Positions 8,181 to 9,436 of a stretch of DNA of 38,091 nt are shown piece by piece. The notes below the pieces were generated by a model. That model was not told where the DNA came from, searched no databases, and saw nothing but the letters and a program-made list of their open reading frames with translations. The position numbers and the translations under genes were made by a program. The stretch is taken from assembly GCA_028291345.1 (NCBI GenBank), contig JAQGIF010000254.1, positions 1 through 38,091 of the forward strand. Direction: 5' to 3'. This DNA comes from Rhodospirillales bacterium. Its GTDB lineage: Bacteria > Pseudomonadota > Alphaproteobacteria > BOG-932 > Roseiterribacteraceae. The stretch's first letter is position 1; the number at the start of each line of letters is the position of its first letter.

Positions 8181-8540
8181 GCCCCCCGAGGGGGATATGT
8201 GCGGTTGCATACTTATGTATGTTCGCTATTCGTTTTTACTGATTCCGCAAGCCGAACAGATAGTCAGCCAGGCTGATGCGAATCGCTGAAATTTGTTGTG
8301 ATAGCCATCCCCCGCTTCTGCCGGCATTAACCCGAAATAAGCCCACTCAACGGCCCGAACCCATGCGCAAAAAGCAGGACTGACCTTCTGATCCAGACGG
8401 ATAAGGTAACAAAGTGACCGTGAATTGGTTCTTAATTGTACGAAAAAACAAATAGCATGCGCATTCGTGATAATCTTTTGCACTGCACCCATCGCAGCCA
8501 TGCAAATGCCAATTTTTCTCGGATTCCTGCGGCTCTCCGC
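8181..8540. other. intergenic region without a convincing gene
   Basis: Between the dnaE2 remnant and the sRNA promoter the composition is AT-richer. A minus-strand frame of 91 codons (8226-8501) exists, but its codon use is unlike the neighbours, it has no ribosome site and its product matches nothing I know. I see no RNA gene here. Confidence 0.4.
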
Positions 8541-8569
8541 CTTGCCAAGCGTTCGCAGTTGCGATAGTT
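8541..8569 (+). promoter_or_regulatory. predicted promoter of the small RNA
   Basis: CTTGCC (8541-8546) and ATAGTT (8564-8569) are separated by 17 bases. The -10 element ends about nine bases before G8578, where the first RNA stem begins. The match to the TTGaca/TATaaT consensus is moderate, but the spacing and the position fit the RNA. Confidence 0.5.
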
Positions 8570-8577
8570 TCGCCCTC

Positions 8578-8665
8578 GATATGGCATCTTCCCCGCCATA
8601 TCCGACGCCTTTTTGAGGCGTTTCCTCCCTAAACTCGGGCCGCCATTGAGCGGCCCGTTTTTTTT
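8578..8665 (+). ncRNA. candidate trans-acting small RNA with anti-Shine-Dalgarno loops
   Basis: About 88 nucleotides fold into three hairpins in a row. Hairpin 1 is GATATGGC/GCCATATC (8578-8585 with 8595-8602), eight perfect pairs around the loop ATCTTCCCC. Hairpin 2 is ACGCCT/AGGCGT (8605-8610 with 8616-8621). A single-stranded TTCCTCCCTAAACT follows. Hairpin 3 is an intrinsic terminator. The CU-rich loop and linker are complementary to ribosome binding sites, the design known from alphaproteobacterial trans-acting sRNAs. No open frame explains these structures. I cannot assign it to a named Rfam family. Confidence 0.7.
8636..8665 (+). terminator. intrinsic terminator of the small RNA
   Basis: CGGGCCGC pairs perfectly with GCGGCCCG across the six-base loop CATTGA and is followed by eight T residues. 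It is the strongest classical terminator in the window. Confidence 0.92.
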
Positions 8666-8731
8666 AGCCCCAGCAAAAGACTTGCCGAGCGGCAGGCCTT
8701 CCCCGCGGGCCGACGAGGCCGGCCGTAAAGC

Positions 8732-9436
8732 CTAGCTCAATCCCACGACGGGAAGAGAGGCGCCGTGGATCGCGCGGGCCTTATCCGACGCCAGGAACAG
8801 AATGACATCGGCCAAGGCATCCGGGGCGATCCAGCGGCTAGCGTCCGCATCTGGCATGTCGGCGCGGTTAGCAGGACTGTCGATAATGCTGGGCAGAACG
8901 CAATTGACGTTGATGCCATGGTCCCGCAACTCGGCGCTCAGGCTCTCGGTCAGGCGGATGACGACGCTCTTGGAGGCGGAATAGGCGGCCATATTGCCCT
9001 TGCCGGTCACGCCGCCCATCGCCCCGATATTGACGATCTTGCCGAAACCGGCGGCCAGCATGGCGGGCACGACGGCGCGCACAACATTCAGCACGGAGCC
9101 GGCATTCAAGTTCATCAGACCGTTCCAGAACTCATCGGTCGTCTCATGAACCGCTGGCCCCATATTGAAGCCGCCGGCAACATTGCAGACGATTTGCACT
9201 GGCCCGAACTTCTTGGTCGCCACGGCCAATGCCGTATCGATCGCCGACCGGTCGGACAGATCCACCACCAGGGGAAGCTTGCTATCGCTCTCCGCACCGT
9301 ACGACGCTTCGAGCCGCTTGGCCGCGATATCGACCAACACGAGGCGCGCACCAGCCTCGGCAAAGGCCGCCGCGACGGCGCGTCCGAGCGTACCCGCCGC
9401 GCCCGTAATCATCACAACCTGACCCGCGATATCCAT
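8732..9436 (-). CDS. SDR-family oxidoreductase with Ala at the usual catalytic Ser position
   Basis: This 234-residue classical-length short-chain dehydrogenase has the Rossmann motif TGAAGTLG near the N-terminus, Asp at the end of strand 2 (LVDIA, suggesting NAD(H)), NVAGG, and the active-site YSASK. The residue 13 positions before that Tyr, normally Ser, reads Ala (NIGAMGG). Some SDR subgroups have this and may use another residue. GGAG lies nine bases before the ATG. Substrate unknown. It stands alone between the sRNA and a small protein gene. Confidence 0.87.
   Translation of the reverse strand: MDIAGQVVMITGAAGTLGRAVAAAFAEAGARLVLVDIAAKRLEASYGAESDSKLPLVVDLSDRSAIDTALAVATKKFGPVQIVCNVAGGFNMGPAVHETTDEFWNGLMNLNAGSVLNVVRAVVPAMLAAGFGKIVNIGAMGGVTGKGNMAAYSASKSVVIRLTESLSAELRDHGINVNCVLPSIIDSPANRADMPDADASRWIAPDALADVILFLASDKARAIHGASLPVVGLS

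Follow-up and report, generated by a model that had tools for sequence, protein, structure and literature searches.

The question raised by this locus is whether positions 8541 to 8665 of the window (the whole stretch of DNA that was analyzed, 38,091 nucleotides) hold an undescribed small RNA (sRNA) gene, as the first-pass annotation had proposed. The parts that it described are present where it placed them. A promoter-like CTTGCC (8541 to 8546) is separated by 17 nt from ATAGTT (8564 to 8569), and is followed by an 8-pair hairpin (8578 to 8602) with the loop ATCTTCCCC (8586 to 8594), a second hairpin (8605 to 8621), the linker TTTCCTCCCT (8621 to 8630), and an 8-pair terminator stem (8636 to 8657) with eight T residues (8658 to 8665). 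The sRNA gene itself, on the forward strand, extends from 8578 to 8665 and comprises three hairpins, two CU-rich single-stranded elements and the Rho-independent terminator (8636 to 8665), which was also detected by a terminator scan. The 96 nt from 8570 to 8665 fold at -39.1 kcal/mol compared with a shuffle mean of -21.9 kcal/mol (z = -5.8), a value equaled by 0 of 200 shuffles. Folded singly, each of the three hairpins is also better than its shuffles (z = -4.1 to -4.9, with -4.9 for the 5' hairpin).

The word "undescribed" does not hold. The Infernal search that had been suggested as a check returned a known family: positions 8600 to 8671 of the forward strand match Rfam RF00519 (suhB/MmgR, alphaR8) over the full model (1 to 77 of 77) with 55 bits, above the curated gathering cutoff of 41, and an undescribed family is thereby ruled out. 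AlphaR8 RNAs are recognized by a 10-nt UUUCCUCCCU that is left single-stranded after a hairpin and before a terminator (PMC12559287). The family core hairpin, ACGCCU...AGGCGU, lies at 8605 to 8621 in both the Rfam alignment and the single-hairpin fold, and the diagnostic UUUCCUCCCU, an anti-Shine-Dalgarno (anti-SD) seed, lies at 8621 to 8630, where it is unpaired in the fold except for its first one or two U residues. The locus is thus a real sRNA gene, with a core from an alphaproteobacterial family that is already known and is widespread, and its description as a trans-acting sRNA gene with anti-SD elements is well supported. Members of this family have been experimentally shown to be sRNAs in other organisms, where they are tied to carbon storage and to the control of nutrient receptors; their function has been studied in Sinorhizobium and Caulobacter (PMC8401924, PMC12559287). 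What is new here is a conserved, genus-specific 5' hairpin with a second CU-rich loop.

The gene is not alone in its genome, which has two copies; copies with the same architecture number three in the congener G001 and two in the congener G002. When 385 genomes of the class were searched with a covariance model of the 88-nt architecture, these seven genus loci scored 92 to 117 bits and nothing else exceeded 54 bits. The alphaR8 family as such was found in 32 of the 59 genomes sampled from the class. In most species, one of the copies is reported to lie beside an N-formylglutamate amidohydrolase gene; the gene adjoining the window copy is a short-chain dehydrogenase gene (8732 to 9436, reverse strand; Pfam PF00106), a convergent neighbor and not part of the sRNA gene, whose orthologue also adjoins the sRNA genes L032 and L033. 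A plasmid search gave no record covering 80% of the query, and the matches listed cover the core only. The hairpin 15-mer has more than 120 scattered matches in viral contigs, which we take as chance with so short a pattern.

Several divergent family members were seen along the way. A fourth alphaR8-like copy in a congener (L066, G001:C218:22110-22190; 31.7 bits) has CACCCUCCCUU where UUUCCUCCCU is expected and lacks the CU-loop 5' hairpin. Weak alphaR8-like RNAs of the sister genus (L045, G003:C1 ~1841750, and L046, G004:C158 ~13440; 29 to 30 bits) carry a 5' hairpin CCGACG-CTCCC-TCGTCGG and more CUCCC elements, giving up to three anti-SD-like motifs per RNA. In an alphaR8 gene of another family (L018), UUUCCUCCCU is tandemly duplicated within 20 nt (positions 1502 and 1522), and one genome has a tandem array of three alphaR8 genes in 600 bases (L007/L054, G036:C7:54432-55030).

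The 5' hairpin (8578 to 8602, forward strand) almost wholly precedes the RF00519 model, which begins at 8600. It has 8 pairs and a CU-rich, anti-SD-like loop, AUCUUCCCC (8586 to 8594). Across the seven copies in three genomes, it follows the consensus GATATGGC-A(T/C)CTTCCCC-GCCATATC with at most 2 differences. Mean pairwise identity among these copies is 96% in this hairpin and 97% in the UUUCCUCCC linker, while it is 75% in the core hairpin, 65% in the terminator and 59% in the 34 nt upstream (the promoter). Since conservation begins sharply at about 8577, the transcript 5' end is likely to be at about 8577 to 8578. A 63-amino-acid open reading frame with a TTG start (8425 to 8616) overlaps the hairpin, but it is unlikely to be coding, because the hairpin nucleotides hardly vary among copies, in contrast to an identity of no more than 59% immediately upstream.

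Is this hairpin a true structure, and does it belong to the RNA? The annotation had also proposed that the stems be checked in relatives. They are indeed kept there, mostly by sequence identity. The stem of the 5' hairpin has two one-sided, pair-keeping changes (G-U and U-G) and zero compensatory changes, whereas the terminator stem has one compensatory change. As proof of structure, covariation is uninformative here, with the sequences too alike and most stem pairs invariant, so the structure of the 5' hairpin rests on folding and identity. The copy L040 retains the hairpin although its promoter is without the shared TTCGCA dyad, which indicates that the hairpin travels with the RNA and not with the promoter. 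All seven full-architecture copies have kept it, through duplication and promoter exchange, and none of the other genomes of the class that were searched had it in this form.

A second seed is probably what the genus-specific hairpin contributes to the RNA. The more specific proposal, that the AUCUUCCCC loop would be an independently constrained pairing site, so that a dual-seed alphaR8 RNA would have two target sets (one for UUUCCUCCCU and one for CUUCCCC), seems to us quite possible, and we put it forward tentatively. The alternative is that the hairpin serves just to cap the RNA, as a variable stem that protects its end, with a CU-rich loop that has no pairing role. Many alphaR8 loci of other genera do bear hairpins of unrelated sequence at the same position, and in the sister genus (L015) the hairpin there is without a CU-rich loop, as expected of a cap. 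However, a mere cap would drift as freely as the other two hairpins do, and within the genus both loop and stem are fixed. We consider a role as a cap alone possible but less likely than not.

A second alternative concerns the family rather than the hairpin. AbcR1 and AbcR2 (alphar15) have three stem-loops with two CU-rich anti-SD motifs, transporter targets and partial homology to SuhB (PMC7143759), and the layout at this locus resembles theirs in its stem-loops and motifs. That the RNA is nearer to AbcR than to MmgR is nonetheless improbable: its core bears the exact alphaR8 UUUCCUCCCU, and its best Rfam family is suhB, the sole clan family reported by the Rfam scans, which retain the best of each clan. 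The least credible reading, which we consider very improbable, is that there is no sRNA gene here but a DNA-level feature, or an orphan terminator belonging to the convergent dehydrogenase gene, which ends 67 nt away in a synteny kept in congeners. The same structure occurs in other gene neighborhoods (the paralogues L002, L040 and L041), the dehydrogenase gene and the T run are on different strands, and in other organisms experiments have shown this family to be an sRNA.

Alignment with L002, L016, L019 and L041 shifts the promoter by one base from the register first described, to a -35 element TTGCCA (8542 to 8547; TTGACG or TTGTCA in paralogues) and, 17 nt downstream, a -10 element TAGTTT (8565 to 8570; homologous to TATATT), which together correspond to TTGACG-N17-TATATT in L002. 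These hexamers are weak by consensus, and a promoter scan reported none for the window copy. Between them is a dyad, CGCAGTTGCG (8554 to 8563, forward strand), which recurs at alphaR8 promoters and has a spacer of 2 nt compared with the canonical 1 nt; the extended dyad TTCGCANNTGCRATA has two occurrences in the 5.6-Mb genome, both at alphaR8 promoters.

Farther upstream, about 90 nt before the likely start, is the single match in the window to the PhaR/AniA-type box YGCRNYGCR (TGCACTGCA, 8479 to 8487, forward strand). The mmgR gene of S. meliloti is under repression by PhaR/AniA and activation by NtrC (PMC8401924); there, electrophoretic mobility shift assays (EMSA) show YGCRNYGCR to be the motif that PhaR recognizes in the mmgR promoter (PMC12542648). 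The genome encodes PhaR, which would probably bind this predicted box and control the locus. Upstream of 49 alphaR8 loci, which are related and are not 49 independent observations, there are 54 such boxes at 40 of the 49 loci compared with 6.7 in dinucleotide shuffles, and they cluster 40 to 80 nt before the seed. This enrichment is class-wide, yet the Caulobacter study reported no promoter motif common to the four siblings there.

Which mRNAs might such an RNA pair with? UUUCCUCCCU is identical to the Caulobacter motif that pairs with mRNAs and with CrfA (PMC12559287), and SisA of that organism has mRNAs for TonB-dependent receptors among its validated targets. In the present genome there are seven occurrences of GGGAGGAAACG, which is exactly complementary to the core seed CGUUUCCUCCC; two of them are inside the sRNA genes. 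The other five sites (5/5) lie 0 to 5 nt before start codons, of genes for two TonB-dependent receptors, one glutathione S-transferase, one DoxX-like protein and one product with a signal-peptide-like start and no Pfam match. These sites are only suggestive, because the 11-mer contains the Shine-Dalgarno (SD) sequence and is expected near starts. In G001 to G004, the 11-mer sites outside sRNA genes precede other genes or none, with no evident TonB receptor among them. A general preference for TonB receptors by duplex energy (p of about 0.001) was rejected, as the 16S anti-SD itself matches the difference, whose cause is strong SD sequences or more accurate start calls rather than the sRNA; across 22 TonB receptor genes, pairing with the sRNA had no more discriminating power than pairing with the 16S anti-SD. 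For the loop, the complementary GGGGAAGAT before ATG gives 12 distinct sites, about nine of them at plausible gene starts. These fit weakly with the loop as a seed, but they are short and SD-like.

Taken together, the core family membership, the conservation of the parts in paralogues and congeners, the PhaR gene and the PhaR-type boxes upstream lead us to conclude that this is very likely an alphaR8 (MmgR/SuhB/Sis-type) trans-acting sRNA gene of ~88 nt, encoding what would be a PhaR-linked antisense repressor at ribosome-binding sites, probably with a second, loop-borne seed. Transcription would proceed from the sigma70-type promoter at 8542 to 8570 and end at the terminator at 8665. The RNA, probably acting together with Hfq, on which MmgR and the Sis RNAs are known to depend, would pair through CGUUUCCUCCC with the ribosome-binding sites of mRNAs, putatively including those of the two TonB-dependent receptors, and block their translation. 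PhaR that is free of storage polymer would probably repress transcription and so tie the RNA to the carbon status of the cell. In this scheme, the 5' hairpin peculiar to the genus would present AUCUUCCCC as the second seed and may also protect the 5' end.

Compared with MmgR (Sm8/SuhB, alphar8) of S. meliloti, the RNA shares RF00519, the UUUCCUCCCU linker, the terminator and the PhaR site upstream, which is predicted here, but it is ~88 rather than 77 nt long, is encoded by at least two gene copies and has a 5' hairpin that lies outside the Rfam model. Like SisA to SisD of Caulobacter crescentus, it combines the same core motif with several copies per genome; however, receptor mRNAs are only candidate targets here, and for the siblings in Caulobacter the promoters are reported to be unrelated and a sponge RNA, CrfA, to exist (PMC12559287), while most copies here share the promoter dyad. 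A CrfA-like sponge for this RNA would be expected to have a loop bearing GGGAGGAA. The layout with two anti-SD elements is not a new principle, since MmgR is reported to have three stem-loops and an anti-SD in its first loop, and AbcR RNAs have two such motifs (PMC7143759).

With these results, an sRNA family that is functionally important but has received little study is extended to a lineage of uncultured alphaproteobacteria, whose close relatives are bog metagenome assemblies. The boxes upstream suggest that alphaR8 genes may as a rule be under PhaR control across the class, and not in Sinorhizobium alone. The near-invariant 5' hairpin offers a clean test case for the gain of a second seed in sRNAs; if the loop is indeed such a seed, one RNA would serve two target sets, an arrangement that would have been acquired in this uncultured genus.
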